DNA of 64,000 nucleotides from Ceratothoa steindachneri (taxonomy: Eukaryota > Arthropoda > Malacostraca > Isopoda > Cymothoidae): the NCBI GenBank assembly GCA_963969495.1, contig OZ018335.1:89500440-89564439 (forward strand), written 5' to 3'. The notes beneath the pieces are model-generated. The model saw only the letters and a program-made list of their open reading frames with translations, had not been told where the DNA came from and ran no database searches. The stretch's first letter is position 1, and each line of letters starts with the position of its first letter. This document shows, piece after piece, positions 11,040-61,879 of this stretch. Made by a program: the position numbers and the translations under genes.

Positions 11040-11460
11040 CTGATTTGATCTCTGAACAAACCATTCCAGCAGGGTTTACAGTGATTTCCATCCCTGGAGG
11101 GGGAAATTCCTTCTTTATGAGCATCTTACATTACCAAACTGGAGATGTTTCTAATCATCAGACTATACGTGAAGCTATTTATGAGGAAATATTAAAAGAT
11201 CCTACTAAGTATGGTTATGATCAAAACGCTTCCACTTTGAGACAATTACGATTACTGAGACATTCGGGTCAGTTACCTTCCGAATCTGTGTGTTCTGCCA
11301 TCTGTCAATTATATGACTAGGAAATTGCTATTTACGATGGCAGTTCAGATCCTATGATTTACAGACATCCGGGTGCACCACAACAGTGTTATCTCCATTG
11401 TCTAGCAGGTGTTCATTATAATTTATTAATTCCTTTATGATCACATCCTGATCTACATCC
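11040..11460 (+). pseudogene. Gyp-3 OTU-like domain, Ser replacing catalytic Cys
   Basis: Directly after RNase H, a segment begins IPGGGNSFFMSIL, continues with helical text (IREAIYEEILKDP, then LPSESVCSAICQLYD) and ends LAGVHYNLLIP. The order matches the OTU cysteine protease pattern: a Gly/Asn-Cys-Leu/Phe-Phe start, a helical middle and a terminal His-Tyr-Asn. The nucleophile position is Ser and the preceding Asp is Gly, as in Gyp-1 at 19040-19445. One stop lies at about 11318. I infer an OTU fold from pattern alone; activity as a protease is doubtful. Confidence 0.5.
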
Positions 11461-14142: not shown

Positions 14143-14886
14143 TGTGGTGGAGCGAATGTGAGTGTGTGAAGGGGAATGGGTTTTTTATTATATTTTCTTT
14201 TGTACATATGTATTTGATTTCATGTTGTATGAATAAGGTTAGTTAACATCTCATGTTTTTTTTATTAGCTACTAAATGTTAAAGATTTTATGAGACAGCG
14301 TTCAAGTACCAGAATAAAAAAAAAAAGAAGAAAAAAAAAGCCCAAAACAAACAAAAACATTGCCTGCATTTTGCAAGAGCGACTTTAACAAAAATATTTG
14401 GGAGATATTTAAAGAAGATATAAGAAGTCATCTAATAGTAATGACTGGATCTTAAAGAAAACTGAGCTCCGAGGTGGCAGGCACCATAAGCCCCGCACAC
14501 CCAATTTTGTCACAAGAGTGACTGCCGACAAGATTTTACCCCGGGGAGGCTGGCAAATCGTAAACCGTGGTACCACGTAAGAAAACTCCTCTTTTTGTTG
14601 TCTCTTGTTTTGGTTGTCCCCTTTTGTATATGCTGACTCTTAGTATTAATATATATTTTTTTTTTTATTGATTGGGTTCCAAGATAGGATTGTTTTAGTA
14701 TATATAGAAATAGGCTGATTGGGTGCATATTTACCCATATTTTTTTGTAAATATTGTATTTTTTTTGTTAAGTAAAGGACTGTACATACAATCCGTTTTA
14801 TTCTCCTTCGATTTCTCACGTCTGGATTTAGTGTAGGAAGCGGGTTGGATCGATTGGGGTTAGTCTAAATTTTTTGGCCCGCTACA
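14143..14886 (+). repeat. Gyp-1 5' LTR
   Basis: 744 bp, against 805 bp for the 3' LTR. The difference is mainly a 66-bp segment lost after GTGTGTGAAGGGG. An A-run of variable length lies near 14320. It ends CCCGCTACA at 14886. Confidence 0.92.
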
Positions 14887-14888
14887 TT

Positions 14889-14906
14889 TGGCGCCCGAAT
14901 AGGGAC
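14889..14906 (+). other. Gyp-1 primer-binding site, tRNA-Lys type
   Basis: TGGCGCCCGAATAGGGAC lies two bases after the LTR. It matches the lysine-tRNA primer site used by several retroelements at all but one position. An identical site is at 30693-30710 in Gyp-2. Confidence 0.8.
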
Positions 14907-15022
14907 ATGAGACTTCGAAACCGGGAGCGTGACGGGATTGGATTGCAGTCCATACCCAATTAGCGTGGCAAGTAGTTTGGTTGTTTTTCACCTTTGTCTA
15001 TCGCTGTTACTAACCTGGGAGG

Positions 15023-16729
15023 ATGGCTTCTGTGGAACAGGGCCTCCATTATGAGATTGTGAGACTGAGGCTGGAATTGAGGCAGAAAGAGGAGGAATGT
15101 ATGATGTTGAGGAACGTGATTGATGGATTGAAGAGTGATGTGATGAGTATGGATGAGAAGACAGACAGGATGAGGAAAGAAATGGACGAGAGACAGAAGC
15201 AGGTCGACCAACGGATGAAGGACTTGAATGACATGATGAAGGGGTCAGGACCGACCCCAGGACCCTCGACCTTGACCCCTGCTCCGACTGAAGGGGATAA
15301 GACTAATGGGATCAATGGGAGTGTGTGCGAGTCTAGAGAGGATAGGGTGATTATGAGTGATAGGAAGGACGGAGAATGGAAGAGAGTTGAACGCAAGAGA
15401 AGAAGGAAGAGTGGTGCAAAGGGGAAGGATAGGAAGGTAAGAGGCAAGAGTGTGGACTCGTTGTACTCGGATGAAGGCGAGAGCGATGGTATGATTGATA
15501 TGAGTGAGAGTGAAGGCAGCTCAAGTGAGAGTGAAGTGAATGTGGGAAAGGGTATTTTGATAAGGGAAGTGCCAAAGATAGATAGATTTAGGTTACATGG
15601 TGGGAAAAGTGTGGAAGAATTCTTCGGGGAATTTGAGCGATATTGTAAGCTCAAGTACCCGGAGAATAAGGGATACTGGATGAATGTTTTGGGGGAATGT
15701 TTGGAGGGAAAAGTATTGGAGTTTTTCCGCGTGATTACAAGTGTGGGGAAACCAAGGTACGATGTGGTGAAGAAGCGGATGATTGGACAGGTGAAACGAA
15801 TGAAAGAGAGTGTGAAGTATAAAAGGGTAAATGAATTTGAGAAGGCTCGAATGGGGAAAAGTGAAAGTGTGAACATGTATGCACATAGGCTTGAGAGTAT
15901 GGCAAGAAAGAGGTATGGTGATGATGATGTAAATGAATGTAAACCACTGATGAGGAAGTTTTTGGACACGATCCCACGAAAGGTGAGTGAATGGCTGAGT
16001 GGAAAGAGAAAGGAGAGAATGAGACTGACAGGTGAACGGTTGATGTGGGAGGATGTGTTGGAGCTGTTGGAAGATGGACGATTTGATGATGAAAGCGATC
16101 TAGAAGAGGATGGATGGTACAGTGTGAATTTTGGGGATAAGAAGCCCAGGAGCTTTCATCCACCCCAGCAGTATGTCAGCTACAGGGATGCACCAGCTGG
16201 AGTGATGTCGAACTTCCTGGGCCGGCAGAATGGATGGGTAAATGGAGGGTGGTCAAATGGAAGGGGACAGATGAATTTCAAGCGTGGGAACAGATATATG
16301 AGAGAGAAACCGAGGTATGTCCCAGCAAACGAGAGATCGAATGGTGGGAGAAAGATTGTGGAATGTCATCGGTGTGGAAGGAAAGGTCATATGTTGGCAG
16401 AATGTAGGTGGACGTCTGGTGCATGTTTTGGTTGTGGTAAGAAAGGGCATATGATAAAGGATTGCCAGGAAAGTGTGAAAGAGTGCTTTGAGTGTAAAGA
16501 AATAGGCCATTTGAAGAAAGATTGTCCGAGGTTGAATGGTGGAGCAACTGCTGGGGGGAGTGTGAAGTATGCTTGTGGTAATTGTGGAAAGGCTGGTCAT
16601 TATGCGAGGATGTGTCGTGACCAGAGGAATGTATGTAGCTATTGTGCGATGGAAGGACATTCAAGTGAAAAGTGTTGGATTAGACTGAGAGCGCAAGGTG
16701 TGAATGGAAAGTCTGAAGCGAGAAACTGA
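15023..16729 (+). CDS. Gyp-1 gag, five CCHC zinc knuckles
   Basis: Open frame of 568 codons beginning MASVEQGLHYEI. Residues about 8-75 are a charged coiled coil, followed by a Pro/Thr linker and a basic/Ser-rich acidic segment. Residues about 185-355 form the capsid-like region (FRLHGGKSVEEFFGEFERYC, then WMNVLGECLEGKVLEFF). The C-terminus, about 447-550, holds five C-X2-C-X4-H-X4-C knuckles: CHRCGRKGHMLAEC, CFGCGKKGHMIKDC, CFECKEIGHLKKDC, CGNCGKAGHYARMC and CSYCAMEGHSSEKC. One or two is usual in Ty3/gypsy. Gag forms the particle and binds RNA. The frame is intact, and protease 1 starts just downstream. Confidence 0.88.
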   Translation: MASVEQGLHYEIVRLRLELRQKEEECMMLRNVIDGLKSDVMSMDEKTDRMRKEMDERQKQVDQRMKDLNDMMKGSGPTPGPSTLTPAPTEGDKTNGINGSVCESREDRVIMSDRKDGEWKRVERKRRRKSGAKGKDRKVRGKSVDSLYSDEGESDGMIDMSESEGSSSESEVNVGKGILIREVPKIDRFRLHGGKSVEEFFGEFERYCKLKYPENKGYWMNVLGECLEGKVLEFFRVITSVGKPRYDVVKKRMIGQVKRMKESVKYKRVNEFEKARMGKSESVNMYAHRLESMARKRYGDDDVNECKPLMRKFLDTIPRKVSEWLSGKRKERMRLTGERLMWEDVLELLEDGRFDDESDLEEDGWYSVNFGDKKPRSFHPPQQYVSYRDAPAGVMSNFLGRQNGWVNGGWSNGRGQMNFKRGNRYMREKPRYVPANERSNGGRKIVECHRCGRKGHMLAECRWTSGACFGCGKKGHMIKDCQESVKECFECKEIGHLKKDCPRLNGGATAGGSVKYACGNCGKAGHYARMCRDQRNVCSYCAMEGHSSEKCWIRLRAQGVNGKSEARN

Positions 16730-16767: not shown

Positions 16768-17670
16768 ATGAGTGTGAGTAATGTGTTGGTAAGTCTGTCT
16801 AGTGTGAAAGTGCTGTCTGGTAGGAAGTATGAGTGTCTGACTGTGAAGGTGGAATTGAATGGAATTGAGTGTTTGGCTTTAATAGATTCTGGATGCAAGG
16901 CGAGCTTGGTGTATAAAGATGTGTATGACAAGGTTAGCGAGAAAGCCCCCCCTGTCTGAGTGCAAGGGTAGTTTGGTAGGTATTGGTAATAGGAGAGTGC
17001 CTGTGATTGGAATGATAAGGTCACCTGTTCGAATGCATGGTATGATGATGAATGAATGTGAATTCTCGGTGATTGATAAGGTGAGTAGTGAGTATGGTGT
17101 GATTTTGGGCTATGATTTTATGAAAATGAATCGTATGGTTGTGCATCCTGCAAGTGATCAGATTGAGAGAAAGATTGGTAAAAATGGGGTGTATAAGTTA
17201 TATGTAGGGAAAGATGGTAGTGTTTTGAGGAGTGTGTTTACTGGTATTGAGGTGACTGCTATGGAGAATGTAAGACTTGTGAAGGGTGAAAGGGTGGCGG
17301 TTAAAGTGAGTTGGAGTAAGGATGTTAGTTTAAATGTGGGTGAGAACACCGTGATATTGGATGGAAAGTATGCATATTATAAGGTAAGGCGTGTTGCTTG
17401 TGTGTTTGATGGCTTGATGAGAATGAATGATCCTTTTGTATGTGTGCAGGCGGACCCCAGGGTGAAGGGACAGGTGAGGGGTATCCAAGTCGGAGATGGA
17501 CTAGGACACCTCTCCACTGTCACTGAGGTAGGTATGGATGATAGCACGGATATCAGGGTGAATATTGCGAATGAAAAGACATGTGAATGGATGTATAATG
17601 AGGTGAAGGACATGGTGAAATTGGATGGATGTTTGACTGAGTATGAAAGGGAGGATGTGTATCGAATGAT
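16768..17670 (+). pseudogene. Gyp-1 first retropepsin-like protease
   Basis: Aspartic protease domain before RT, as usual in Ty3/gypsy. The active site reads ECLALIDSGCKASLV (Asp at about 16885). The flap region contains VGIGNRRVPVIG and the distal block is GVILGYDFMKMN. A run of seven C at 16946-16952 coincides with a frameshift that separates the active site from the rest. The protein continues through a linker to about 17670, where a second frameshift leads into RT. It would process Gag-Pol if intact. Confidence 0.78.
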
Positions 17671-17679
17671 ATTTGAACG

Positions 17680-18965
17680 AAAGGGAGCCCTCAGTAAGGG
17701 TGATCGGATTTCGGCCGAGGCATTTCCCACGTTCGGTTGCTGCTGAGATTGAGGAGCAGTGTTTGGAATTGGAGCAATTGGGAGTGATTGAAGAGAGTGA
17801 GAGTGCATGGAATAGTCCAATTGTGCCTGTACGTAAGCCGGATGGAAGATTGCGTCTATGTGTGGATTATTGAAAGGTGAATGAAAGGACTTTGAAAGAA
17901 AGGTTTCTGATGTGTGTGGTATCTGAGTGTGTATATAGTATGCATGGGATGGAGTGGTTTACGAAGCTGGATCTGGTACAGGGGTATTACCAGATGCGTA
18001 TTGCTGAGGAGAGCCGGCCGGTAACTACCTTCTCTTCCACAAAGAGGCATTACCAGTTCCGGAACCTCAGCTTCGGGTTGGCTAATGCTCCCGGAGCCTT
18101 CCAGCGGGCAATGAATGTTGTGTTGAGTAAGTTTGCGAGTAAGAATGTGATTGCATTTATAGATGATATTTTGATTATGACTGAGACTTTTGAGGAGCAT
18201 ATGAGATTGGTGAATGATGTGTTGAGAACATTGGACAGTGTTGGTCTGAAGGTGAAAGTGGCGAAGTGTGAATGGTTTGCGAAAGAAGTGGAATTCCTTG
18301 GACATATGGTGAGTGAGAATGGGTTGCGAAAATCACCGAAGTATGTTGAGAAGGTGCGAATGTTTCCTAAACAGGTGACTGTGAAGCAACTGAAGTCGTT
18401 TTGGGGTTTGATTGAGTTCCAGCGAAAGTTTATACGTGATTGTTCTGGTGTGAGTAAGCCTCTGACTGAGTGGATGGGCAAGGAAGGTAGTACGGTTGTC
18501 AAGTGGAATGATAAGATGAATGAGGCATATGAGAGACTGAAAGAGGCAGCGGCTGAAGATGTTGAATTGGCGTACCCAGATTATAGTGTAAATGCTAAAA
18601 TGCTTGAATTGTATACAGATGTGAGTGGGTATTGTATGGGAGGTTTTCTGATGCAAGAGCAGCGTTTGAATGGAGAATGTCAGGCGAATAATTGGGTATG
18701 TATCCAAGGCTATGAATGTTGCAGAACGAAAGTATTCGACTGTGGAACGAGAGTTGGCTGCGATAAGATATTGTTTGAAAGTGTTGCGTCCGTTTTTGTA
18801 TGGTGTGAGGTTTGTGATAAAAACAGATCATCAACCTCTTTTGTATCTGCAGCGTATGAAGTGGGCTGATAGTAGGATTGCAAGGACTTTGGAAGATTTG
18901 AGTGACTTTGACTATGTGATTGAGTATGTGCCTGGTGAACGGAATGGAGTGGCTGATTTGATGTC
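17680..18965 (+). pseudogene. Gyp-1 reverse transcriptase and RNase H
   Basis: RT: SPIVPVRKPDGRLRLCVDY, a TGA at 17874-17876 where Arg is usual, then FTKLDLVQGYYQM (catalytic Asp), LSFGLANAPGAFQRA and AFIDDILIM (FIDD, about 18154). The thumb contains FLGHMVSENGL. RNase H starts with LYTDVSGYCMGGFL near 18602, shifts frame near 18680, then continues YSTVERELAAIRY and IKTDHQPLLYL to about 18965. It copies RNA to DNA and degrades the template strand. One stop and two frameshifts disable it. Confidence 0.85.
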
Positions 18966-19039
18966 AAGGTATCCTGGTACGAATGATGAAAATGTGTGTG
19001 GAGTGAGTGATGCTGAGTATTTGCCGAAAGGGATTATGA

Positions 19040-19445
19040 ATGGAAAAGAGAGTAAGGGTGGTGGTGATTCCTTGTTTGAGAGTGTATGGAATGGTTTGCA
19101 AGATTTGAAGAGTGATGGAGTAGATGTGAGAGTGCCCGATAGTGTAGATGATTTAAGGAAGGAGGTAATGAATGAAGTGTGTAGGAAGCCTGAAAGCATT
19201 GGTATGGCAAAGGCGCGGAACTTCATGAAAGAATTGAGAGCGATGTGTATGCAAGGGGTCCCGCCACTTCAGGAAGTGTTGATTGTAGTGAGTCGTTTGT
19301 ATGGAGTGATTGTATATGTGCACTTTGGTGGTGAGAGGCCGATTGTGTACAAGGATGAGAAGATGAAGGGTTTGAATCCTAATGTGGTACATCTGCAATG
19401 TTTGAGCGGTGTGCACTACAATTGGGTGATTGAAAAGTGTTCATA
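19040..19445 (+). CDS. Gyp-1 OTU-like domain, Ser at the nucleophile position
   Basis: Part of an open frame running from RNase H to integrase (to 20361). The domain starts KGGGDSLFESVWNGL, continues VDDLRKEVMNEVC, MKELRAMCMQGV and VLIVVSRLYGVIVYV, and ends SGVHYNWVIE. This is the OTU order: nucleophile loop, helices, beta strands, then His-Tyr-Asn. The usual D-G-N-C is G-G-D-S, so both the Asp and the Cys are changed while the terminal His stays. Gyp-3 has G-G-N-S at the same place. OTU enzymes are deubiquitinases. Here it may be a serine variant or a binding domain. Pattern-based inference only. Confidence 0.55.
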
Positions 19446-19589
19446 TATAAGAGAGAAGAATGATTGTCTGGATGAAGATGAGTGTGTGGTGAGTGATGAT
19501 ATGGGAGTTAATGACAGTGTGGATATCAGTGCTGATGTTGGTGTGCTTGTTCCTTCGGTTTATTGCGAACATGGTGGACCTGATATGAT

Positions 19590-19925
19590 GGAAGCGAGAG
19601 TGAAAGTTGGTGAAAGGTTGTTCTGTGGTTTGATTGATACTGGAGCGCAGGTGTCTTTAGTGAATGAGAGGATTCTGAGTAAGTATGATGAGTTTAAATG
19701 TTGCGAGCATAAACCTGTGAAGTTACGGATAAGTGGATTAGGGAATGGTATGATAGTGGCATGGGAACAGGTTAGTCTGAAAGTGAGTTTGGGTAATGGT
19801 GTGAATGTGAAGCATGACTTTGTGATTCTGAAAGATGAGCAAATGCCGTGTTGTTTCTTGCTTGGTGTAGACTTTATGAGATTGAATGATTTGTCTTTGG
19901 ATGCTGATAAGGATCGTCTTATGAA
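19590..19925 (+). CDS. Gyp-1 second retropepsin-like domain, after RNase H
   Basis: Same open frame as the OTU-like domain. ERLFCGLIDTGAQVSLVNE carries the Asp-Thr-Gly of retropepsins. LRISGLGNGMIVAW could be the flap, and CCFLLGVDFMRLND matches the hhhG-x-D block. It sits between the OTU-like domain and integrase, an unusual place, and protease 1 exists upstream (16768-17670). The two differ in sequence (DSG versus DTG), so they are not a recent duplication. Gyp-2 keeps this domain but has lost its DTG. Confidence 0.7.
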
Positions 19926-20229
19926 AGGTGAATGTGAGGTGATGAAGTTGAATGAGTGTGCGAAGAATGTTGTCAAATTTTGTGGCATGATTGAGTTGGT
20001 CATGGATGATGAGAATGAGATTTTAAGTGATGATGATATTCTAGAGATGCAAGAGATGTGTCCTTTTCTTAGTGAGTTGAAGAAGTGTGTAATGATGCGT
20101 GTTGATTTGAATGAATGGCCAGAGTGTTTAAGTGATTTTAAAAGGTATGCTAAGGATTTTGTTGTTTGTATGGATGTTGTATATTTTGTGAGGCATGTGA
20201 AGGGTGGTGATGATATGTATGTACCTGTG

Positions 20230-21204
20230 ATGTCCTTAGTTGGTATGATTGGTCTGGTGAAGGTTGTGCATGATAATTATGGGCATATGGGTAAGTTTAA
20301 GCTGTGGGAGTGTATGAAGAAGCATGTGTTTCCTTCCGTTTCTGAGAACTGTTGTGAATGATGTTGCAACTACGTGTGAAAGGTGCAAGGTGTGCAAGTG
20401 AAACCACCGATGTTGAAAGTTGATGCGAAAGAACCGTTTGAATTGGTAGTGATTGATTGTGTGAATTTGCCACGTACGAGTGCTGGGAATGTTGGTATGG
20501 TTGTTATGGTTGATCATAAAAGTAAGTTTGTGTATGCAGCGCCTGTGAGAGATAAAAGGAGTGTGACTGTTGCGCGTGTGGTTGAGCAGTTGTTCTTTCC
20601 TATGTGTGTATGGAAGCCTAGAAGATGTCTGAGTGATAATGGGCCTGAATTTGTAGGGGAAGTGTTTGAGCAAATGTTGAGAGAGAATGGTGTGGAGCAT
20701 GTGAGAACAACTCCGTATGTACCGTCTTCAAATGGATTGGTTGAACGTACTATAAGAACCTTGTGTGAGATGTTGAGAATGATGAGTACGACAGTGAATG
20801 ACTGGGATGTATGTCTGGGGAGAGTGTTGTGGGCGTATAATTCAACTGTGCATAGCGCAACTGGAATGTCCCCATGTCAGTTTGTGATGAATTTTGAAAG
20901 GCGAGTGAAAGATAGGTTTCGTTTAAGTGAAAGTGAGCAGAGTGTATGGCGTGAGGCACATGAAAGGTTCCGTTCATTTGAATTAGGTGCAAAAGTATTG
21001 AAAGTGAAAGAAGTGAAGGGTAGGTTGAATGTGTCAAAGATGAGTGAGAAGTTTCATGGACCTTATAGAGTTGTGAGAGTTTGGGAAAATGGGGTGACAT
21101 ATGTTTTGGAGAGTTTGAATGACGGTATGACTGAGAGAGTGCGGGCTCATCAGAGTCAGTTAAGGAGATGGAGAGAACCTCCTGACTACCTGGTGAGTCA
21201 TCCA
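20230..21204 (+). pseudogene. Gyp-1 integrase
   Basis: Inserts the cDNA into the genome. The zinc domain begins VVHDNYGHMGKFKLWECMK, but a frameshift near 20330 and a small deletion near 20380 remove part of the Cys pair, which is intact in Gyp-2 (CERCQKRK). The catalytic core has Asp in LVVIDCVNLP, Asp in CLSDNGPEF and Glu in VPSSNGLVERTIR. A C-terminal GPY/F module follows (FHGPYRVVRVWENGVTYVLE). The core frame is open from 20383. Confidence 0.85.
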
Positions 21205-21970
21205 GTGTATGAACTGTGTAGAGAGAGAGGTAAAGTGCATGATGATGAGATTGAATGTGATAGTATGGATCTGTCTGGGAAAGAGCTAGTCTTAGTCTCA
21301 AGGAGTAGAATGCGTACAAAGAAGAGTGACAGGAAGAATGCAAGTATGAATGAAAGTAAGTCCGAGCAGAGTCTTTCTGGTATGGGGGATCTTGAAATGA
21401 AGATTGAGTTTTTGCGTAAACAGGTAAGTGATTTGGCTGGTATAAGTAGACGAGTGAGTGAGCTGCCTGTGCCTGATTTTTCTGGTTTTGGGAACAGTAT
21501 GAATGATAGTGTGTTTGGGCAGAATGAACCTAGTGTGGCTGATTTTTCGGGTTTTATGAATGGTAACAGTAGGGACGAATTTGATGTAGTGAACGATGAA
21601 GTGGCTGATTTTTCAGGTTTCTGGTGGGAACCAGTCGAAGGGGTTTCTGGTATGCCTGTTGAGAATATGGGGGATGTGACTGACCTGTCTGTTTCGCAAG
21701 AGTGTACCTTGAGTTGGATGAGAGCTGATGAATGGGGGTATGAAGAGTGAAGGTTCTGAACGGAAGAGTATGAAAGAATTCTGTCGTGAGATGGGAGAAC
21801 TGGTAATGAGGGCTAAGAGTATGGTTGACGAGATGATTAATAGTGATGATGAGACTGACAGGAAGACTGATGAACAACCCCGACTGATTGCTACGCGTAG
21901 CCAGGGACCAGTAGACGAGTGTGAATGGGTGCAGAAGGATGTGATTGAGTATAAAAGGTACTGTGAGTAA
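21205..21970 (+). pseudogene. Gyp-1 C-terminal tail with three DFSGF motifs
   Basis: An extension after the integrase GPY/F region. It has a coiled segment (KIEFLRKQVSDLAGISRRV), then three DFSGF motifs starting near 21475, 21541 and 21607, exactly 22 residues apart. A Glu/Met-rich end runs to a stop at 21970. A deletion near 21725 shifts the frame relative to Gyp-2. No signal peptide or membrane segment is seen, so this is not an envelope gene. Function unknown; repeated short motifs suggest docking to a partner. Confidence 0.6.
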
Positions 21971-22024: not shown

Positions 22025-22829
22025 TGTGGTGGAGCGAATGTGAGTGTGTGAAGGGGCCATTCTCCCACCCTTTTTCCCAATACACTCGCCCTCTTTCTGT
22101 AAGAATGTGTGTGTGAGTGGGAATGGGTTTTTTATTATATTTTCTTTTGTACATATGTATTTGATTTCATGTTGTATGAATAAGGTTAGTTAACATCTCA
22201 TGTTTTTTTTATTAGCTACTAAATGTTAAAGATTTTATGAGACAGCGTTCAAGTACCAGAATAAAAAAAAAAAAAAAAAAAAGCCCAAAACAAACAAAAA
22301 CATTGCCTGCATTTTGCAAGAGCGACTTTAACAAAAATATTTTGGAGATATTTAAAGAAGATATAAGAAGTCATCTAATAGTACTTGACTGGATCTTAAA
22401 GAAAACTGAGCTCCGAGGTGGCAGGCACCATAAGCCCCGCACACCCAATTTTGTCACAAGAGTGACTGCCGACAAGATTTTTCCCCGGGGAGGCCGGCAA
22501 ATCGTAAACCGTGGTACCACGTAAGAAAACTCCTCTTTTTGTTGTCTCTTGTTTTGGTTGTCCCCTTTTGTATATGCTGACTCTTAGTATTAATATATAT
22601 ATTTTTTTTTATTGATTGGGTTCCAAGATAGGATTGTTTTAGTATATATATATAAATAGGCTCATTGGGTGCATATTTACCCATATTTTTTTGTAAATAT
22701 TGTATTTTTTTTGTTAAGTAAAGGACTGTACATACAATCCGTTTCATTCTCCTTCGATTTCTCACGTCCAGATGTGTAGGAAGCGGGTTGGATCGATTGG
22801 GGTTAGTCTAAATTTTTCGGCCCGCTACA
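22025..22829 (+). repeat. Gyp-1 3' LTR
   Basis: 805 bp, TGTGGTGGAGCG to CCCGCTACA, followed by the ATGG target duplication. It keeps the segment of about 66 bp lost from the 5' LTR. Confidence 0.93.
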
Positions 22830-22939
22830 ATGGGTCAGGGAAAGAGGTGTTTCCTACCATTAACTTACCAGCCCCACCAGAGCTGGTTAAGCAGCATCCA
22901 ACGGTCTTCTTGTTAATGGAGCAGGCAGCCTTCTCAAAC

Positions 22940-29115: not shown

Positions 29116-30576
29116 TTAGTGAATCAAACCACAGAACAACCTTTCACCAACTTTCATTCTCGCTTCCATCATATCAGGTCCACCATGTTCGCAATACACA
29201 GAAGGAACAAGCACACCAACATCAGCACTGATATCCACACTGTCATTAACTCCTATATCATCACTCAACACAAACTCATCTTCATCCAGACAATCATTCT
29301 TCTCTCTTATATATCCGTTCCCACGCTTGAAATTCATCTGCCCCCTTCCATTCGACCACCCTCCATTTGCCCATCCATTCTGCCGGCCCAGGAAGTTTGA
29401 CATCACTCCAGCTGGTGCAGCCTTCAGGGCATCCCTGTAGCTGACAAACTGCTGGGGTGGATGAAAGCTCCTGGGCTTCTTACCTCCAACATTCACACTG
29501 TACCATCCATCCTCTTCTAGATCGCTTTCATCATCAAGTCGTCCATCTTCTAACAGTTCCAACACATCCTCCCACATCAACCGTTCCCCTGTCAGTCTCA
29601 CTCTCTCCTTTCTCTTTCCACTCAGCCATTCACTCACCTTTCGCGGGATCGTGTCCAAAAACTTCCTCATGAGTGGTTTACATTCATTTACATCATCATC
29701 ACCATACCTCGTTCTTGCCATACTCTCAAGCCTATGTGCATACATATTCACACTTTCACTCTTCCCCATTCGAGCCTTCTCAAATTCATTCACCCTTTTA
29801 TACTTCACACTCTCTTTCATTCGTTTCACCTGCCCAATCAATCTCTTCTTCACTACATCGTACTTTGGCTCCCCCACACTTGTGATCACACGGAAAAACT
29901 CCAATACTTTTCCCTCCAAACATTCCCCCAAAACATTCATCCAGTATCCCTTATTCTCCGGGTACTTGAGCTTACAATAAAGCTCAAATTCCCCGAAGAA
30001 TTCTTCCATACTTTTCCCACCATGTAACCTAAATCGATCTATCTTTGGCACTTCCCTTATCAAAATACCTTTCCCCACATTCACTTCACTCTCCGAAGAG
30101 CTACTCTCGGTCTCACTCATTCCAATCATACCATCACTCTCTCCTTGATCCGAGTACAATGAGTCCACACTCTTGCCTCTTACCTTCCCCTTTGCACCAC
30201 TCTTCCTTCTCTTGCGTTCAACTCTCTTCCATTCTCCGTCCTTCCTACCACTCACCATATCTTCTTTAGACTCAATCCTACTGCCATCCATTCCTTTTAG
30301 CGGAGTCCCTTCAGTAAGAGCAGGGGTCAAGGTTGTAGGTCCTGGGGCTGATCCAGCCCCTGTCATCATGTTATACAGGTCCTGCATCCGTCGGTCCGTC
30401 TGATCCTGTCGGTCTCCCACTTCCTTCTTCATCCTATCAGTCTTTTCATTCATCCCTTTTATTTTATTCTCCATTCCCTCCATCATTCCCTGCAACATTT
30501 CACACTCCTCTTCTTTCTTTCTCAACTCCACTCTCAATCGCACTACTTCTTCATTCAATGTTTCCGCTACAGCCAT
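29116..30576 (-). CDS. Gyp-2 gag, knuckles lost
   Basis: Begins MAVAETLNEEVVRLRVELRK, matching the Gyp-1 gag start; an upstream in-frame codon at 30618 is less likely. Coiled coil, Pro/Thr linker and capsid region agree with Gyp-1. After FKRGNGYIREK the frame jumps to the text before protease 2 and stops at 29116 right after ERLFCGLI, where Gyp-1 has DTG. The five knuckles are gone. It may still form capsid with help from intact relatives. Confidence 0.82.
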   Translation of the reverse strand: MAVAETLNEEVVRLRVELRKKEEECEMLQGMMEGMENKIKGMNEKTDRMKKEVGDRQDQTDRRMQDLYNMMTGAGSAPGPTTLTPALTEGTPLKGMDGSRIESKEDMVSGRKDGEWKRVERKRRKSGAKGKVRGKSVDSLYSDQGESDGMIGMSETESSSSESEVNVGKGILIREVPKIDRFRLHGGKSMEEFFGEFELYCKLKYPENKGYWMNVLGECLEGKVLEFFRVITSVGEPKYDVVKKRLIGQVKRMKESVKYKRVNEFEKARMGKSESVNMYAHRLESMARTRYGDDDVNECKPLMRKFLDTIPRKVSEWLSGKRKERVRLTGERLMWEDVLELLEDGRLDDESDLEEDGWYSVNVGGKKPRSFHPPQQFVSYRDALKAAPAGVMSNFLGRQNGWANGGWSNGRGQMNFKRGNGYIREKNDCLDEDEFVLSDDIGVNDSVDISADVGVLVPSVYCEHGGPDMMEARMKVGERLFCGLIH

Positions 30577-51021: not shown

Positions 51022-52581
51022 TTAATCGTCGACAGGGTTCCGACTTAACGAGTCGGCCATACAATTGTTGGACCCTTTTTTATAGTGAATGGAGTACTGG
51101 TACTCCATCAAGAGTAAACTCCATCTCAGGAGTCTTCCATTCTTACACTTATTTTTACCTAAGTATGACAACGGTTTATGGTCGCATTCCAACTTAAACT
51201 CGCGCCCTATTAGATAATATTTGAATTTACCTATGGACCATATTATGGCCAAAGCTTCGATTTCGATAGTAGCGTAGGCTTTTTCTCTACTCAACAGTTT
51301 CCTACTGACATAAGCTATGGGATAGGCTGTTTCGTCATCTTCGTATTGAAGCAATACTCCGCCTAACCCGTCCCGACTAGCGTCCGTGCGAAGGCCGAAG
51401 ATCTTGTTGGGGTTTGGTAAGCGAAGAATGGGCGCAGTTACGAGTTTTCCTTTTAGAACCTCCAACTGAGTTATTGCATGGGGGTTCCACGTGACAGGGT
51501 CTGACGCTGTCTTTTTTAACAAATCATTCAGTGGGGCCGCAATGGAAGCGAAGTGTGGTACAAAACGCCTATAGAACGAGGCCGCTCCCATAAACGATCG
51601 GAGTTGTTTCTTTGTTTTCGGCCGGGGCATCTTGACTATGGCGTCCACTTTTTCTTGTTGGGTAGTCAAGTGTTTTTGTCCTATTTTGAATCCCAGGTAG
51701 TCAATGGATTCGTAGGCAAAATAACACTTGGTCGGCCCGGCGGTTAGACCTTGCTCCTTCAATTTCTCCAGCAATGAGCGTAGGGCGTGTAAGTGTGACT
51801 CCCATGTACGGGTAGCTACGTACACGTTGTCGATGTAAAACGACACGTCACTTAGTCCAGCGATAATTCGCCTCATCATCCTATTATATTTGCTACCGGC
51901 TGTAAGTAGTCCGAAGGGTAGCCTGGTAAACTGTAACAGACCTCTCTCGGTCGCAAAAGCCGTCAGTTTTTTGGACTCCTTAGCGAGAGGTATTTGATAG
52001 TACGCTTTACACAAATCCAATTCGGTGATGAATTTAGCGTCTTCAAATAAATGGAGATTTTGATCTATTAGTGGGATGGGCTCGGCGTGGAAAACGGTAA
52101 CTGAATTCAATTTTCGGAAGTCCACGCACATCCGAAATGATTGATCAGGTTTCTTAACCCTTACTATGGGGGAGCAATAATCAGACTCCGATGGCTCTAA
52201 AATTCCCAATTTTAGTAAATTCCGGACTTCCTTATTGAAGGCTTCTTGTAGGTGGATTGGTAAAGGATATGGTTTGCTCCGAACCACTGAATTAGTTTTT
52301 AGTTTTATTTCTTCGATAAAATCCTTGGCACATCCGGGGTTTTCAGAAATGACTTCTGGGAATTCCATGAGCAAGTTCAACATTTCCGCTTTTGTTGAAT
52401 TTCTAAGTGGGGATTTATCTTTAAATCCACCCGAGGGTCTTCCGGGGTAGGTGAGAGCGAGGGAAGTTCGTATTCCTCGTCTTATTCCACACACACGGTG
52501 TGTATGACTTGCAGGGGCGTACCCGGGCAAACGGCATCCATCGGTTCTTCTTCGTCTAGAAGGGTAATATTCTTTATGCAC
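51022..52581 (-). CDS. Gmr-4 reverse transcriptase and RNase H (YIDN)
   Basis: Frame of 519 codons; similarity starts near residue 60. RT: SDYCSPIVRVKKPDQSFRMC, FITELDLCKAYYQIPL (Asp189), RLPFGLLTAGSKYNRMM and SFYIDNVYVA. The catalytic box is Y-I-D-N at 249-252, with Asn (AAC, 51826-51828) in place of the second Asp. Thumb LGFKIGQKHLTTQQEKV. RNase H: LRTDASRDGLGGVLLQ, YATIEIEALAIIW and LECDHKPLSYL. It ends NCMADSLSRNPVDD. The first 50 residues look non-coding in this frame; the link to integrase is unclear. Confidence 0.83.
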   Translation of the reverse strand: MHKEYYPSRRRRTDGCRLPGYAPASHTHRVCGIRRGIRTSLALTYPGRPSGGFKDKSPLRNSTKAEMLNLLMEFPEVISENPGCAKDFIEEIKLKTNSVVRSKPYPLPIHLQEAFNKEVRNLLKLGILEPSESDYCSPIVRVKKPDQSFRMCVDFRKLNSVTVFHAEPIPLIDQNLHLFEDAKFITELDLCKAYYQIPLAKESKKLTAFATERGLLQFTRLPFGLLTAGSKYNRMMRRIIAGLSDVSFYIDNVYVATRTWESHLHALRSLLEKLKEQGLTAGPTKCYFAYESIDYLGFKIGQKHLTTQQEKVDAIVKMPRPKTKKQLRSFMGAASFYRRFVPHFASIAAPLNDLLKKTASDPVTWNPHAITQLEVLKGKLVTAPILRLPNPNKIFGLRTDASRDGLGGVLLQYEDDETAYPIAYVSRKLLSREKAYATIEIEALAIIWSIGKFKYYLIGREFKLECDHKPLSYLGKNKCKNGRLLRWSLLLMEYQYSIHYKKGSNNCMADSLSRNPVDD

Positions 52582-54440
52582 GCGCGGCGGTGATATTTTT
52601 TTAGCATGTTTATGTGATAGGTTCTTCGCCCTGTTGGGGTATCTATCAAGTAATCGACTAGACCCCGTGCCTCGATTACTTCAAACGGTCCCTTCCACTG
52701 GGCCCATAACTTATTATTTTCGGTCGGGAGTAATAATAAGACTTCATCTCCTGCCTTTAATTTTCGAGCCTTTGCTTTCATATCGAAATAGTCCCGGTAT
52801 TTGGCTAAATTTTTCTCGGCGTTCTCTCGAGCTAAGCCAGAGCAGTATTCTAGGCGCTCGCGCATATACATCACGTAGGCGTAAGACGATTTGATTTCTT
52901 GATCGAGCTTCGCATTGGAAAATAATTCCTTAAGAATACTCATAGGACCTCGCACATTTCTCCCGTATAATAGCTCAAAGGGCGAGAATCCCAACGTCCG
53001 ATGAGGTATTTCTCGGCAGGCGAAAAGGGCTGCAGGCAGGTATCTGTGCCACTGTGTAGGGTTGTTTTGACACAACTTCTTCAATATATTTTTGAGAGTC
53101 CCGTTTAATTTCTCGCAGATTCCGTTAGCGGCTGGATGAAATGGACTCGTAAAAATTGGCTTGACTAACAGAAGTTTGTTAAAATACTCCATCAATTCTG
53201 AAGTGAATTGGCGCCCTCTATCAGATAAAATTTCTTTAGGCAGGCCTACTCGTGCAAAAATTGAAATTAATGCTTCCGCGCAGGAAATAGTGTCAATCTT
53301 CCGTAGGGCCACGGCATCTGGGAACCGGGTGGCACAATCCACTAGGGTGAGGATGTAGGAGTGTCCTCCACTTGAAGGGGGGTGAATTGGTCCCACCAAA
53401 TCAATTGCCACTCGAAAGAAAGGTTCGGTAATAACGGGCACCTTTTGTAAGGGAGCGGGAGGTACCCGTCCTCTGGAGGGATCCTTCTGACACACGTCGC
53501 ATGATCGGTAATAGGCCACAATTTCCCTGGCGTCCTGGGCCCAATAAAAGTGTCGGAATATCTGCTGCGCCGTTTTGTTGTGCCCAAAGTGTCCGGCTAA
53601 TATTCCATCATGCGCGGTATTCAAAATTCTTTGCGTGTATTCTTGAGGTACACACAGTGCTTTCTTGTTCTCCTTATCCTCCTCGCTGATAGTACGGTAG
53701 AGAAGTGAGTCTTCTACGATATACTGGATAGGCTTCTTTCCTTTCACTTGGAGAATTTCACCTTTAATAGCTTTCTCCCATAGAGGTTTAAGAGTGGGGC
53801 ATTCCTTCTGAGCACTGGCGAAGGAAGTCAATTTGAACCCATTGTCTTCGAGGGTAATCCTCGGGGTCAACTTAGCAGGTTGCTCTTTCCTCTGGGCTTC
53901 TTGTGCCCGGGTGACTACTTGTTGGGCCACTTCTTGCTGGGGAATTAGGGGGTTTTGTCCGATTAGTACTGCGCAGAACTTAATCGGGGCTACTACAACG
54001 TCCGTCCAACCGGTGAAATATCTGCATTGTATATGACATCTCACGACGGGGAATCGATTGTCGCGTCCTAAAAAGTCGTGGACGATTGCGAATTTCTTAT
54101 GGGCAGGGTTTACTGGGGGCAGCAACTTGTCGGATACCACTATGCACGTGCATCCGGTGTCTCTGACTAAAGTGGATACTCGGCACCCATTAACAGTGCC
54201 CTCTTCAAATTGTAGGCAGCCTGGCGAACTTTTGTTGAATAGAAAGTTTACCTGTTGCTGGGGCCCTTCGGATGTTGGTACGGGGACGTAGGACGAATCA
54301 GCTTGTCCTGCTGGGATCGCGGCAGTCAGGTTTTGCACCTGTTGTCTCGAGGTCTCCCTCAGTCGGGAGTTCTGTGGGCACTGGAAACTCAGGTTACCTA
54401 TTATCCCGCAGGTATAACAAGTGACGGGTTTCCTGGGATA
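52482..54440 (-). CDS. Gmr-4 knuckle, protease and integrase
   Basis: An open frame from about 54338, with a zinc-knuckle remnant upstream in the same frame: CYTCGIIGNLSFQC (about 54375-54415), where Asn replaces His. Protease: STLVRDTGCTCIVVSD (Asp60) and AVLIGQNPLI. Integrase: H243, H250, C280 and C283 (HHCC); Asp313 in VAIDLVGP, Asp373 in LSDRGRQF and Glu409 in GICEKLNG, so D,D35E. The C-terminus has WKGPFEVIEARGLVDYLID and INMLKKYHRR. It ends at the TAA at 52482-52484. Being upstream of RT, the order is protease-integrase-RT. Confidence 0.87.
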   Translation of the reverse strand, partial: YPRKPVTCYTCGIIGNLSFQCPQNSRLRETSRQQVQNLTAAIPAGQADSSYVPVPTSEGPQQQVNFLFNKSSPGCLQFEEGTVNGCRVSTLVRDTGCTCIVVSDKLLPPVNPAHKKFAIVHDFLGRDNRFPVVRCHIQCRYFTGWTDVVVAPIKFCAVLIGQNPLIPQQEVAQQVVTRAQEAQRKEQPAKLTPRITLEDNGFKLTSFASAQKECPTLKPLWEKAIKGEILQVKGKKPIQYIVEDSLLYRTISEEDKENKKALCVPQEYTQRILNTAHDGILAGHFGHNKTAQQIFRHFYWAQDAREIVAYYRSCDVCQKDPSRGRVPPAPLQKVPVITEPFFRVAIDLVGPIHPPSSGGHSYILTLVDCATRFPDAVALRKIDTISCAEALISIFARVGLPKEILSDRGRQFTSELMEYFNKLLLVKPIFTSPFHPAANGICEKLNGTLKNILKKLCQNNPTQWHRYLPAALFACREIPHRTLGFSPFELLYGRNVRGPMSILKELFSNAKLDQEIKSSYAYVMYMRERLEYCSGLARENAEKNLAKYRDYFDMKAKARKLKAGDEVLLLLPTENNKLWAQWKGPFEVIEARGLVDYLIDTPTGRRTYHINMLKKYHRRACIKNITLLDEEEPMDAVCPGTPLQVIHTVCVE

Positions 54441-54529
54441 CGTGCCGGTATTAGGGTATGATCCTTGTGGAATCCTAACTTCTTTTTGATTTTTTTCTCC
54501 TCCAAAATTTGGCTTATAAGTTCCTTTTG

Positions 54530-55396
54530 CTACTGAGAACTTAAAGGGCTTCTTCTGTAATGCCTGGGTGGCGGCCCATTTTTCTTTGGGGAGGGAGCCT
54601 TCTCTTTCTTGTACTCCCTAGGATATAACTGATGATTTACCGCGTGGAGGTCAGCCTCGTCCAGGCACTCGTTGAAGGTAGAAGCTTTTCGGTCCTTAAC
54701 GAATGCACGGATTTCCTGGGGTAGTGTACTTAGTAACTGATCTCTAAGCATGAAGTCGACGACCGCAGCGACTTCGTTCTCTACCCCTTCTGACTCCATC
54801 CAAAACTGTAGGCTTCGACGAAGCTCAAAGCCAAAATGTTTGTACGTTTGTCCAGGTCTTATACGAGACTGCCTGAACTTCATCCTATCTTCTTCCAGGG
54901 TAAGGTTTGTAGCTGAGAGAAGTTCGGCTTTGAGAGTGGAATAGTCCACAGTCGCTTCTGAGGGTAAAGATACGAATATCTCTCTCATCCTACGATTGAG
55001 TAGCGGTAACAGTCTGGCGACCCCATCTTCTTCTAGGTCCCAATTATTGACTTCAAATATTTTCTCAAAATGGGAGAGATAGGAGCATAAATCTTCTTCG
55101 TCCTTGTACTCCGGGAGTTTCATGCTGGCCGCTGGTGACACTCCTGTTTTGGATGACACTGACTGCACCTCTAACTGGTCTTTACTAAGGGCTCTTTCGT
55201 GGGCCCTTATCTTCTCTCTTTCATCAGCTTCCATTTTCGTCTTTTCTGCTTCCATTTTCATCTTTTCTCTTCTTTCTTCTCTTTCGTTTCTCTCTTTCTC
55301 CTGAATAAACGAACTCAGCTCGGTTCCTTGCAGTCCGAGGCTTTGACCTTGCTTCCGATAAAGGTCAAACAATGCCATCGCGCTTATGTCAGTCAT
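54530..55396 (-). CDS. Gmr-4 gag with SCAN-like region
   Basis: 288 codons from MTDISAMALFDLYRKQ, about 220 nt inside the 5' LTR. Residues about 30-75 are a Glu/Lys coiled coil (KMKMEAEKTKMEADEREK). The capsid region begins LPEYKDEEDLCSYLSHFEKI. About residues 165-250 resemble the SCAN/gag C-terminal fold: KHFGFELRRSLQFWMES, VVDFMLRDQLLSTLPQEI and FVKDRKASTFNECLDEADL. A frameshift of the -1 type separates it from the knuckle-protease frame. SCAN domains of vertebrate zinc-finger genes are thought to derive from gag of Gmr1-like elements. Confidence 0.8.
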   Translation of the reverse strand: MTDISAMALFDLYRKQGQSLGLQGTELSSFIQEKERNEREERREKMKMEAEKTKMEADEREKIRAHERALSKDQLEVQSVSSKTGVSPAASMKLPEYKDEEDLCSYLSHFEKIFEVNNWDLEEDGVARLLPLLNRRMREIFVSLPSEATVDYSTLKAELLSATNLTLEEDRMKFRQSRIRPGQTYKHFGFELRRSLQFWMESEGVENEVAAVVDFMLRDQLLSTLPQEIRAFVKDRKASTFNECLDEADLHAVNHQLYPREYKKEKAPSPKKNGPPPRHYRRSPLSSQ

Positions 55397-57249: not shown

Positions 57250-60183
57250 TCAGTCCCATCTAGCAGCTTCATCCATATATTTATCTAATCTATTCTTAAA
57301 ACTACCCAGAGAGGAGGCTTCTATCACATGCCTAGTGAGCCTATTCCATTCATCTACCACACGATTTGTAAACCAATTCCTCCCAATCTCCTTCCTAAAC
57401 CTATACTTATCAAGCTTAAACCCATTGCTACGTGTTCTGTCATGTTCACTAAGTATAAGAACCTTACCCAGATCCCCTTTATTATATCCTTTTATCCATT
57501 TGAAGACTTCAATCAATTCCCCTCTGACTCTTCTCCTTTCCAATGTATGTAGATTTAGTTTTCTGAGCCTTTCACCATAAGGTAAGTTCCTTAGCCCACC
57601 AATCATCTTTGTCATCCTTTTCTGCATAGACTCAAGCAAATCAATATCCTTCCTATAATATGGTGACCAAAATTGTACTGCATAGTCTAGATGAGGCCTA
57701 ACTAGCGCCAGATACAGTTTTAGAATGACTTCAGCACTCTTATTGCTTACACTCCTCCTAATGAATCCCAATATCCTATTAGCTTTATTCTTAGCATTTA
57801 GACATTGCTTTCTAGGACGAAGGTCTGAACTTACCAAAATACCCAAGTCTCTCTCACAATCAGTCCTCCCTAAAATTCTGCCATTTAATTTATAACTATT
57901 CAATGGATTATTTCTACCTATACTAAGTACACTACATTTGTCTATGTTAAACTTCATTTGCCATTTCTTGGCCCAAATGGACAGAATGGTCAATTCCTCC
58001 TGCATTACAACAGCATCAGAATCAGCCCTAATGGCCCTACCTAGCTTAGTATCATCAGCAAATTTACTCAGGTCACTACTTATACCTATGTCAAGATCAT
58101 TAATATAAATTAAGAATAGCAAGGGACCCAAAACAGATCCTTGAGGAACTCCACTGCTAACACACCCCCACTCAGATTTAACTCCATCTATACTAACTCT
58201 TTGCTGTCTGTCACCAAGCCATGACTGAATCCACCTAAATATACTGCCATCGATCCCGTGTGCTTTAACTTTGCTCAGAAGTCGTAAGTGTGGCACTCGA
58301 TCAAAAGCCTTACTAAAGTCCAAGTATAAAATATCATAGTTTTCATCATTATCTGCTGCTTCATACACCTTACTATAAAAAGAGAGCAAATTAGTCAGAC
58401 AGGATTTACCCTTACTAAAGCCATGCTGTGATTCTTTTATCAACTTACGCTTATCCAAGTGATCTCTAATATTCCTTGCTATAATAGATTCCATCATTTT
58501 CCCTACCACTGATGTCAAACTTACTGGTCTGTAATTAGACATATTTGTTTTATCCCCTTTCTTAAATATAGGTATCACATTGGCTTTCTTCCATGCCACT
58601 GGCACAATGCCACTCTCCAATGATTTTCTAAAGATGCATGCTAGGGGCTCACTTAACACATCCTTACATTCTTTCAAAATTCTAGGAAAGAGCTCATCAG
58701 GCCTGGGTGCCTTACTACTTTTGATTTTATCAATTTCCTTTGTCACTATCTCCTTTGTGATCAAGATATCCTTTAATTTCTCTTCATCATTACCCCGAAA
58801 GATCATTGACACCTCAGATATATTTAGAGTATCCTCCTGTGTAAATACTGAGAGAAAAAAGTCATTTAGCATTCCAGCCATTGAGTCCCTATCACTCACT
58901 AATTGTCCATTGGAATCTATAAGTGGGCCTATTTTATCTCTAACCTTAGTTTTGTATAATTGATAAAAACTTTTAGGATCTTCCTTTGCCCTATTTGCCA
59001 CTTTAATTTCATAATTTCTCCTTGCTACTCTAACTAACTTTTTAACATCTCTTGCTAGTTCATTATATCTCTGCCTTAAGTGATCCTCTCCATTTTTTAT
59101 TTTCCTATAAATGCCCTTTTTAATGCCAATATAATGCTTAATTTTATCTGTCATCCATTTTGGGTCATTATTTTTAGTCCTAATCTCCTTATATGGAATG
59201 TTAATCATCTGACCTGTAATTAATTGCTCAATTATTCTTTCATACTCCTCTTCAATTGTAATCTCTTCCTCCTGGTGATTATTGTCTCCACTAACTGATA
59301 TCATTGAATCTATTCCTGAATTGATTTCATTGCCTGGTTTCTGTACAACTGCCTCCAGGTAAGTCCTGAGCCCATTATAATTTGCTCTTCTAAAGTCAGG
59401 AATTTTAACATTGTTCATGCTACTATCAATACCATTCCATTTCATCTTGAATCTAATTTCACAATGGTCACTATTACCCAAATTTCCTCCAATCTCAGTA
59501 TCCTTAATAACTTCTTCCCTATTTGTCAGAACTAAATCCAGTATATTATTACCTCTAGTGGGTTCGTTAATTATCTGCCTCAGAAAATTATCTTGGACAA
59601 CATTCAAAAATTCCTCAGCCTCCTGATCACCCACAAGAGCTTCTCAGTCTATATTTCTGTAATTAAAATCGCCCATTATACACACATGCTTACTTCTACA
59701 TGCCCGTTCAATCTCCTGCCACAGAAGATTTGAAGCTTCCTTACTAAGATTTGGTGGTCTGTATAATAATCCTAAGACAAGCTTGTTTTTACCTTCCTTT
59801 ACATTTAGCCATAATGACTCTGTGTTATCATCTAATTTAATTGTACTGTTTACACAACACTGGAGATTATCTTTAATATAAATAATAACCCCTCCTCCTC
59901 TCTTCCTATTCCTATCTGTATGGAACATGTTAAAGCCCTCAATCTCAACCTCAGGTTTAAAGTGATTACCTGCCAAATCAAGCCATGACTCTGTTATCGC
60001 AATTATATCAAAATTCTCTTCACTTGCTAACGCTCTTAAGAGATCTATCTTATTCCTTATACTCCGACCATTTGTGTAGTATATTTTTAAGTTTTTTTTA
60101 TTATTCCCATCTTCATTGCATTGTGCTTTTTTATTCCTAGTTATCTGCTCATTCACTTGTGCATTAGTCCCCCTATAACGCAT
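57250..60183 (-). pseudogene. CR1-B ORF2: endonuclease and RT, one nonsense codon
   Basis: Begins MRYRGTNAQVNEQITRN. Endonuclease: IYYTNGRSIRNKID, IAITESWLDL, LGLLYRPPNLS and CIMGDFNYRNID, then TGA at 59644-59646 where Trp is expected. The frame goes on with ILDLVLTNRE and GNSDHCEIRF. RT: KKANVIPIFKKGDKTNMSN, YLDFSKAFDRVPH, SGVPQGSVLGPLLFLIYIN and LSKFADDTKL. It ends FKNRLDKYMDEAARWD. Apart from the TGA the frame is open for 2.93 kb. The protein nicks the target and copies its own RNA there. Probably lost activity very recently. Confidence 0.92.
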
Positions 60184-60281: not shown

Positions 60282-61301
60282 CTAGTTTCCCACCCGTAAG
60301 GACCTAATCACACTATCCAGCTCCCCCCATAGAACCTCAACACCTGCCCGACTAAGATGGAGCCCATCCATCGCATACAACCTCCTATTCCCGTAAAACC
60401 CTCCCCAGACATCTACAAACACCAATCCTAGCTCCTCACACAGTCCTTTCACAAATTCATTCAAACCAATTGCACGCGACAACCATTCTACCCCCACATC
60501 CAATCTCGGAAGCACACCAGAAACAACACCTTTTACCCTGCTTTTACTATTCCTTTCAACTAACCTTTTATACTGCTCACGTAACTCACATGTACCCACC
60601 TTCTTTACATCATTCACTCCCACATGCATAATCACAACTGCATCCCTCTCACACCCAGAAACCAGCCTATCATACCTCTTACAAACATCACTTACACCAG
60701 CACCCGGCAGACAAACTCTCATTCCCTTCCACTTGCTATCACTCAACTTCCTATCTAAATACCTAATCTGAGAGTCCCCCATCACTAGCACCTCAGTCAT
60801 TCTCCTATTCTGCCTTGGCCTAACATTACCCTCCCTCCTGCTCTCAGTCACGCTACCACCCATCCTGCTTTCATCCACAATCACACCAGGCAAATCACTT
60901 TCACACTCTTCCTCTCTCAGGACATTGAATCTGTTAGTCAACCTAACAGGTTCTATGTCCCTCTCATTCACACACCTAACCTGTCCTAACTTATCTATCC
61001 TATCCATTTTCACCCACCATTCATCATCACTCACAACTTCCACACTGTTCCCAGTCCTAGCCCTATCTTCCACCCTCTTAGCACTAATCTCACCCTTCAA
61101 TCGCACACTTGCATCTCTTCTCACCTCAAACACCAAATCATTCAACCTCTTACATTCCCCACTCAACCTCCTAACCTCCCCTTCCAGAAAACACACACGG
61201 CATTCAGTTACATTCACTCTCCTTTCAACTCCACATGCATCACACACCACATACACACTACTTTCAAACGGCATGCTCTCACCATCTATACAAAAAGCCA
61301 T
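60282..61301 (-). CDS. CR1-B ORF1: zinc ribbon, coiled coil, SGNH esterase
   Basis: 339 intact codons. N-terminal CDAC...CRVC (C-X2-C-X10-C-X2-C), a coiled coil around residues 35-70, a polar linker with TNRFNVLREEE, then an SGNH/GDSL domain: VLVMGDSQIRYLDRKL (Ser block), MHVGVNDVKKVG (Asn block) and AMDGLHLSRAGVEVLW (Asp/His block). All four hydrolase blocks needed for catalysis are readable. This class of ORF1 is known in CR1-like LINEs; a lipid or ester substrate has not been fixed. It ends just before ORF2. Confidence 0.88.
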   Translation of the reverse strand: MAFCIDGESMPFESSVYVVCDACGVERRVNVTECRVCFLEGEVRRLSGECKRLNDLVFEVRRDASVRLKGEISAKRVEDRARTGNSVEVVSDDEWWVKMDRIDKLGQVRCVNERDIEPVRLTNRFNVLREEECESDLPGVIVDESRMGGSVTESRREGNVRPRQNRRMTEVLVMGDSQIRYLDRKLSDSKWKGMRVCLPGAGVSDVCKRYDRLVSGCERDAVVIMHVGVNDVKKVGTCELREQYKRLVERNSKSRVKGVVSGVLPRLDVGVEWLSRAIGLNEFVKGLCEELGLVFVDVWGGFYGNRRLYAMDGLHLSRAGVEVLWGELDSVIRSLRVGN

Positions 61302-61879
61302 ACTCTCAGAAATTTACTAATGAAAAAGTTAACACTCACCAAAAAAAAAAATTCTTGCTCAGGATTGCTGCCAGTTATCTTCCCCAAAAGTATTAATCAC
61401 TAATGTATTTATTATACAGTGATTGATGTATTAAATAAATACAAGAAAAATTACACACCCAAATCAGTATTATATCCCAATCTTACAATCGTTAGAGCGT
61501 CGTTTAAGGACCTTAGGTGGTCGCCTTCAAACATATGTTAGCTCCAACTGCCCACAGCGGCGAGGAGATCAAACATGGTAAGCATTTTTGCCGGCTACCT
61601 TTCCCACGCTTCTCCTCATGAAGGGAGGGGGGCTTGAATATACCTATACTCCTCCAGGAGGCTTAATGTAGCCATTTCTCCACACAATCCGTTTCATTCT
61701 CCTTCGATTTCGCACGTTCGAATTAGTGTAGGAAGCGGGTTGGAACGATTGGGATTAGAGCATAGATTTTCAGCCCGCTACAACTGAACATATCAGAACT
61801 GTTACAAGAGCAAATGCATTTAGTATTCGTGTTGTCAATCCATGGAATGATCTCCCAGAGTATATTGTCAGTGCTCCAT

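Follow-up and report, generated by a model that had tools for sequence, protein, structure and literature searches.

A Ty3/gypsy retrotransposon lineage with a predicted OTU-fold domain carrying serine in place of the catalytic cysteine

Within a 64,000-nucleotide stretch of the isopod Ceratothoa steindachneri genome (contig OZ018335.1, forward-strand positions 89,500,440 to 89,564,439; hereafter the window), the long terminal repeat (LTR) retrotransposon Gyp-1 encodes, between RNase H and integrase, what looks to be a real and conserved OTU-fold domain in which serine replaces the canonical catalytic cysteine. Structure prediction and comparison with related proteins suggest that the domain belongs to the pol of a whole Ty3/gypsy lineage. 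The order of reverse transcriptase, RNase H, and integrase, together with the LTRs, places Gyp-1 in Ty3/gypsy (Table 1), and the alignment of its two LTR regions has 718 matches, 23 mismatches, and 16 gap columns. Gyp-1 pol is interrupted by frame changes, and a single open frame of 563 codons (18670-20361) begins in RNase H, crosses the OTU segment, and extends beyond a second retropepsin (PR2). An earlier reading made from the letters alone (the sequence-only reading) had placed an OTU-like domain at 19040..19445, with the motifs GGGDSLF and HYNWV in OTU order; both motifs were found as described in this open frame and the domain is present, but its limits by model and alignment are approximately 19018-19434.

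The predicted structure of the domain matches OTU folds, and all of the fold matches shown were either OTU-type or titled as a ubiquitin protease or deubiquitinase. A profile built from 23 aligned rows also matched OTUD3 (E 1.7e-5), so that fold prediction and profile comparison both bear out the OTU assignment. Pfam returned no OTU match for the single Gyp-1 sequence and weak matches for 4 of the 23 rows (best E 0.038), and a phmmer search of the Gyp-1 segment against solved structures returned three designed proteins only, with E values of at least 0.25, and no OTU. These weak Pfam results, along with the frame changes or stops that break both Gyp-1 and a diverged copy in the window, Gyp-3, could be taken to favor a domain that is passively carried along or in decay, or a resemblance due to chance. 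We consider this very improbable given the profile and fold matches, the fold in particular speaking against chance, and given that the same motif recurs across diverged relatives and that the domain is more conserved than the linker adjoining it. In 91 pairs of 14 elements, median identity was 58.9% for RNase H and 30.0% for PR2 (some pieces of both being shortened), 39.0% for OTU, and 17.5% for the OTU-PR2 linker (10.3% when shuffled), and the OTU domain therefore appears to be held more loosely than RNase H and more tightly than its linker. The letters GDSL within GGGDSL are all that favors a GDSL/SGNH esterase, a reading that can be practically dismissed, since neither the Gyp-1 segment nor any of the 23 rows matched the GDSL family profile and the fold matches were of the kinds listed above; the real GDSL-type domain in the window (60285-61313, minus strand) lies in another frame.

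To follow the active-site residues across relatives, 45 proteins were gathered, 10 of them added by a second search; 44 reach the domain, whereas P0035 does not. A third protein search with P0018 as query returned P0018 and P0017 only, nothing new, and a scan of viral contigs gave 27 pattern matches, none of which was a relative. With Gyp-1 and Gyp-3 included, this made 46 rows, or 34 representatives sharing less than 60% identity. Serine occupies the nucleophile site in 43 of the 46 rows and 31 of the 34 representatives, the remainder in both counts being one Cys (P0038), one Ala (P0039), and one Phe (P0008). The second loop is covered by 24 representatives; 23 have His there, P0007 having Tyr instead, and all 24 have Asn at His+2. 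At position -3 from the nucleophile, corresponding to the OTU loop Asp, Gly is found in 33 of 34 representatives and Asp in 1; P0002 retains Ser in a loop reading CDCSS, and the loop of P0040 reads EGGDS. The replacement of D-G-N-C by G-G-[DN]-S, first noted in the two copies of the window, is thus found across the sampled relatives, and the residues at the Ser and His positions are not random.

OTU cysteine peptidases have Asn or Asp two residues after the His of the C-terminal loop. The retroelement domain has this His with Asn two residues on, and has neither the catalytic Cys of D-G-N-C nor the loop Asp; because Ser so outnumbers Cys among the representatives (31/34 compared to 1/34), we do not file it as an OTU cysteine protease. 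Seven loop columns exceeded random columns in conservation (0 of 100,000 draws as high), as did the columns of the Ser-His-Asn triad (15 of 100,000 draws), both sets having been picked after conservation ranking. In a tree of the 32 rows reaching both loops, which has no outgroup and weak support at many inner forks (6/28 starred), the Cys, Ala, and Phe rows are single tips among Ser rows. We also entertained the idea that the non-Ser rows are damaged copies, as P0038 has DGG in PR2 and no integrase-core match and P0039 stops 71 residues past the domain, but do not rely on it because many Ser rows are cut as well. Judging from the sampled sequences, serine is a character of the lineage, near-fixed over highly diverged elements, and at the protein level this near-fixation supports the earlier suggestion of selection for a serine variant.

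Our leading explanation, a tentative one with somewhat less than an even chance of holding as a whole, is that the Ser-OTU in pol acts as a slow or specialized serine hydrolase of a ubiquitin or ubiquitin-like bond. Cys would have given way to Ser no later than in the common ancestor of the elements sampled, and the domain would be produced as part of Pol and possibly freed by a retropepsin. It might then come into contact, as we infer from the fold alone, with ubiquitin or a ubiquitin-like protein attached to products of the element itself or to chromatin factors of the host, and hydrolyze the bond through Ser, perhaps slowly, so that Pol or integrase would avoid degradation or be released at the integration site. 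In favor of catalysis, Ser, His, and Asn are retained together, and the loop is altered as a set. That the domain is an active serine-type hydrolase of this kind, kept by the lineage to guard its own proteins or integration complex, we regard as unlikely.

Several observations bear on hydrolysis or on the strength of the serine signal, most of them adversely. The representatives with Ala and Phe at the site (2/34) retain His, and the single Cys row, P0038, is the sole Pfam OTU match among nine whole proteins (E 0.0032, below the cut-off). The gathering of rows itself favors Ser, because a database match requires shared five-residue words, and the loop supplies some of these; in the first protein search, which drew words from RNase H as well, 33 of the 34 rows that reach the site have Ser. 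Drosophila Otu is reportedly, according to others, an active deubiquitinase together with Bam. According to PMC4654579, Drosophila CG3251 and Otu, two Ser-OTUs that keep Asp and His, did not cleave ubiquitin chains, nor were their S40C forms active; no significant binding of chains by CG3251 was detected, and serine-type deubiquitinases had not been described as of 2015. A 2023 classification of papain-like peptidases describes conserved Ser-for-Cys changes as rare but observed, and a figure legend states that two cysteine enzymes retain partial activity after a Cys-to-Ser change (PMC10318531).

It is also quite possible, though the balance tips against it, that the domain is a pseudoenzyme that binds ubiquitin, a ubiquitin-like protein, or another partner without cleavage, perhaps as a means of bringing Pol or integrase to modified chromatin, its loops being kept for shape. 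The nearest experimental precedent is inactive (PMC4654579), in keeping with this alternative, as are the Ala and Phe representatives and the near-universal Gly at -3, but the same study saw no significant ubiquitin binding either. Moreover, the Ser, His, and Asn columns rank with the most conserved ones, and binding alone would seem to need less.

Beside the OTU domain stands PR2, which the sequence-only reading had not mentioned. Of the 32 rows considered, Gyp-1 and Gyp-3 included, 9 end too early, and among the 23 long enough to tell, PR2 is present in 18 and absent by motif in 5 (Gyp-3, P0017, P0018, and the Rotaria rows P0028 and P0045); in Gyp-3, none was seen between OTU and the integrase reading. 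P0032, with LDTGA beyond an SH3-like insert, and P0038, with LDGGA, were counted as having PR2. The SH3-like domain of P0032 (PF14604, PF00018, PF07653), at about residues 235-300 by eye, sits between OTU and PR2 as if captured into pol. PR2 was assigned to the retropepsins based on D[TS]G and on its profile (13 rows), which matched that of the first retropepsin (PR1) with a probability of 99.5 and an E value of 6.7e-23; for Gyp-1 itself, the Pfam match (PF13975, E 5.7e-4, 20.9 bits) is below the Pfam cut-off of 28.2. Gyp-1 PR1 is recognized from ECLALIDSGCKASLV (16867-16911) and GYDFMKMN, each in a different frame, and the frame 16886-17743 had no Pfam match. The PR2 profile also matched a DDI1 homolog (E 7.5e-9), and a link to this ubiquitin-shuttle retropepsin was considered and dropped as evidence because the best matches of PR1 are DDI1 homologs too. 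A midpoint-rooted tree of 9 PR1 and 14 PR2 rows, in which branches are long and other retropepsins are not represented, separates the two groups at 82/97, below that tree's threshold for firm support. Two cysteines (C21, C97) are common to all 13 PR2 rows, and neither is an invariant position in PR1. The tree fits one old duplication, although PR2 may instead derive from a second capture, and OTU was probably gained before PR2, as it has the wider spread in the sample.

OTU-like proteases of some plant RNA viruses cleave their own polyprotein. The retroelement OTU domain, which lies within a polyprotein and adjoins PR2, might in the same way be a third processing protease that cuts Pol with or instead of the retropepsins, but we find this improbable, as two retropepsins with D[TS]G in both PR1 and PR2 already supply processing in P0036, P0040, P0042, and P0043.

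Elsewhere in the window, Gyp-3 carries the homologous domain with GGGNSFF and HYNLL, much diverged as the sequence-only reading had it (26.4% identity to Gyp-1 over 125 aa; E 5e-11 for a search of the 64-kb window) and interrupted by a single in-frame stop. Both copies encode the Ser as TCC. The loop-pair pattern GG[GDN][DN][SC][LF]F, 75-135 residues, H[YF]N, designed after both copies were seen, has one occurrence in the window with no stop between the loops and two if stops are permitted; 60 first-order Markov sequences of window length contained none. A related minus-strand copy at ~30618-27325, taken to be the Gyp-2 of the earlier reading, has no OTU domain; the zinc knuckles, PR1, reverse transcriptase, RNase H, and OTU of Gyp-1 are all missing, and gag joins the post-OTU segment directly at 29275-29319 (minus strand, NGYIREKNDCLDEDE). 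Because both parent places have Y[IM]REK, this suggests a join at short homology. Another gypsy-like element (51025-55396, minus strand) has integrase (PF17921, PF00665) upstream of reverse transcriptase and RNase H, the order of Gmr1-like elements, and the OTU query found no match in it. The minus-strand frame with the GDSL-type esterase domain (PF13472, E 3.1e-9) stands upstream of a reverse transcriptase frame (57253-59643; PF00078, E 4.2e-34), and the two probably form one non-LTR element.

Table 1. Features of Gyp-1 and the Gyp-3 OTU domain (window coordinates)
Feature	Position	Strand	Remarks
Gyp-1 5' LTR	14159..14891	+	
Gyp-1 gag frame with CCHC zinc knuckles	15014..16729	+	PF00098, E 5.1e-13
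Gyp-1 PR1, 5' of reverse transcriptase	16867..17131	+	by motif only
Gyp-1 reverse transcriptase and start of RNase H	17874..18869	+	PF00078, E 2e-28; AFIDDILI 18153-18176
Gyp-1 RNase H, C-terminal part	18670..18978	+	PF17917, E 1.7e-19; same frame as OTU, immediately before it
Gyp-1 OTU-fold domain	19018..19434	+	model core, residues 40-178 of the 18901-19485 translation
Nucleophile loop GGGDSLF	19057..19077	+	Ser codon TCC 19069-19071
His loop HYNWV	19414..19428	+	His codon 19414, Asn codon 19420
Gyp-1 PR2, between OTU and integrase	19564..19929	+	LIDTGAQVSLV 19630-19662
Gyp-1 integrase	20269..21750	+	zinc region 20269-20325 by motif only; core PF00665, E 3.2e-13, another frame
Gyp-1 3' LTR	22106..22834	+	
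Gyp-3 homologous OTU domain	11096..11431	+	GGGNSFF ... HYNLL

Compared to OTUD3, OTUD5/DUBA, yeast Otu2, and OTU1, the retroelement domain is alike in predicted fold and in the order of nucleophile loop and His loop, but has Ser for Cys and Gly for the loop Asp, and sits within a retrotransposon polyprotein. In the open-licence full text of PubMed Central, with most papers judged from their entries in the search results, we found no account of Ty3/gypsy or other LTR elements with an OTU domain, nor of gypsy elements with two proteases. OTU domains in mobile elements are already known, from Ginger1 transposases (PMC2836005) and Helitrons (PMC6431247); compared by their published descriptions, they are cysteine protease domains that lie C-terminal to the transposase or in the Helitron protein, rather than in the pol of an LTR element after RNase H and before integrase. 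With typical Ty3/gypsy elements, the lineage shares LTRs and the pol order of protease, reverse transcriptase, RNase H, and integrase, to which it adds OTU and, in most rows that extend far enough, another retropepsin ahead of integrase. The closest parallel in the active site is provided by Drosophila Otu and CG3251, relatives of OTUD4, which also have Ser for Cys with His kept; there, this change recurs within insects, mixed with Cys relatives and with the loop Asp (D37) kept (PMC4654579), whereas in the retroelements Ser is distributed across the lineage as sampled, with Gly in place of the loop Asp. Isolated Cys-to-Ser changes in OTU proteins have so far been taken as loss of activity, and a mobile-element lineage that keeps Ser, His, and Asn across deep divergence is therefore a natural setting in which to ask if a Ser-OTU can function. 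The arrangement may also tie an LTR retrotransposon to the ubiquitin system through a domain encoded in pol itself, next to a second retropepsin.
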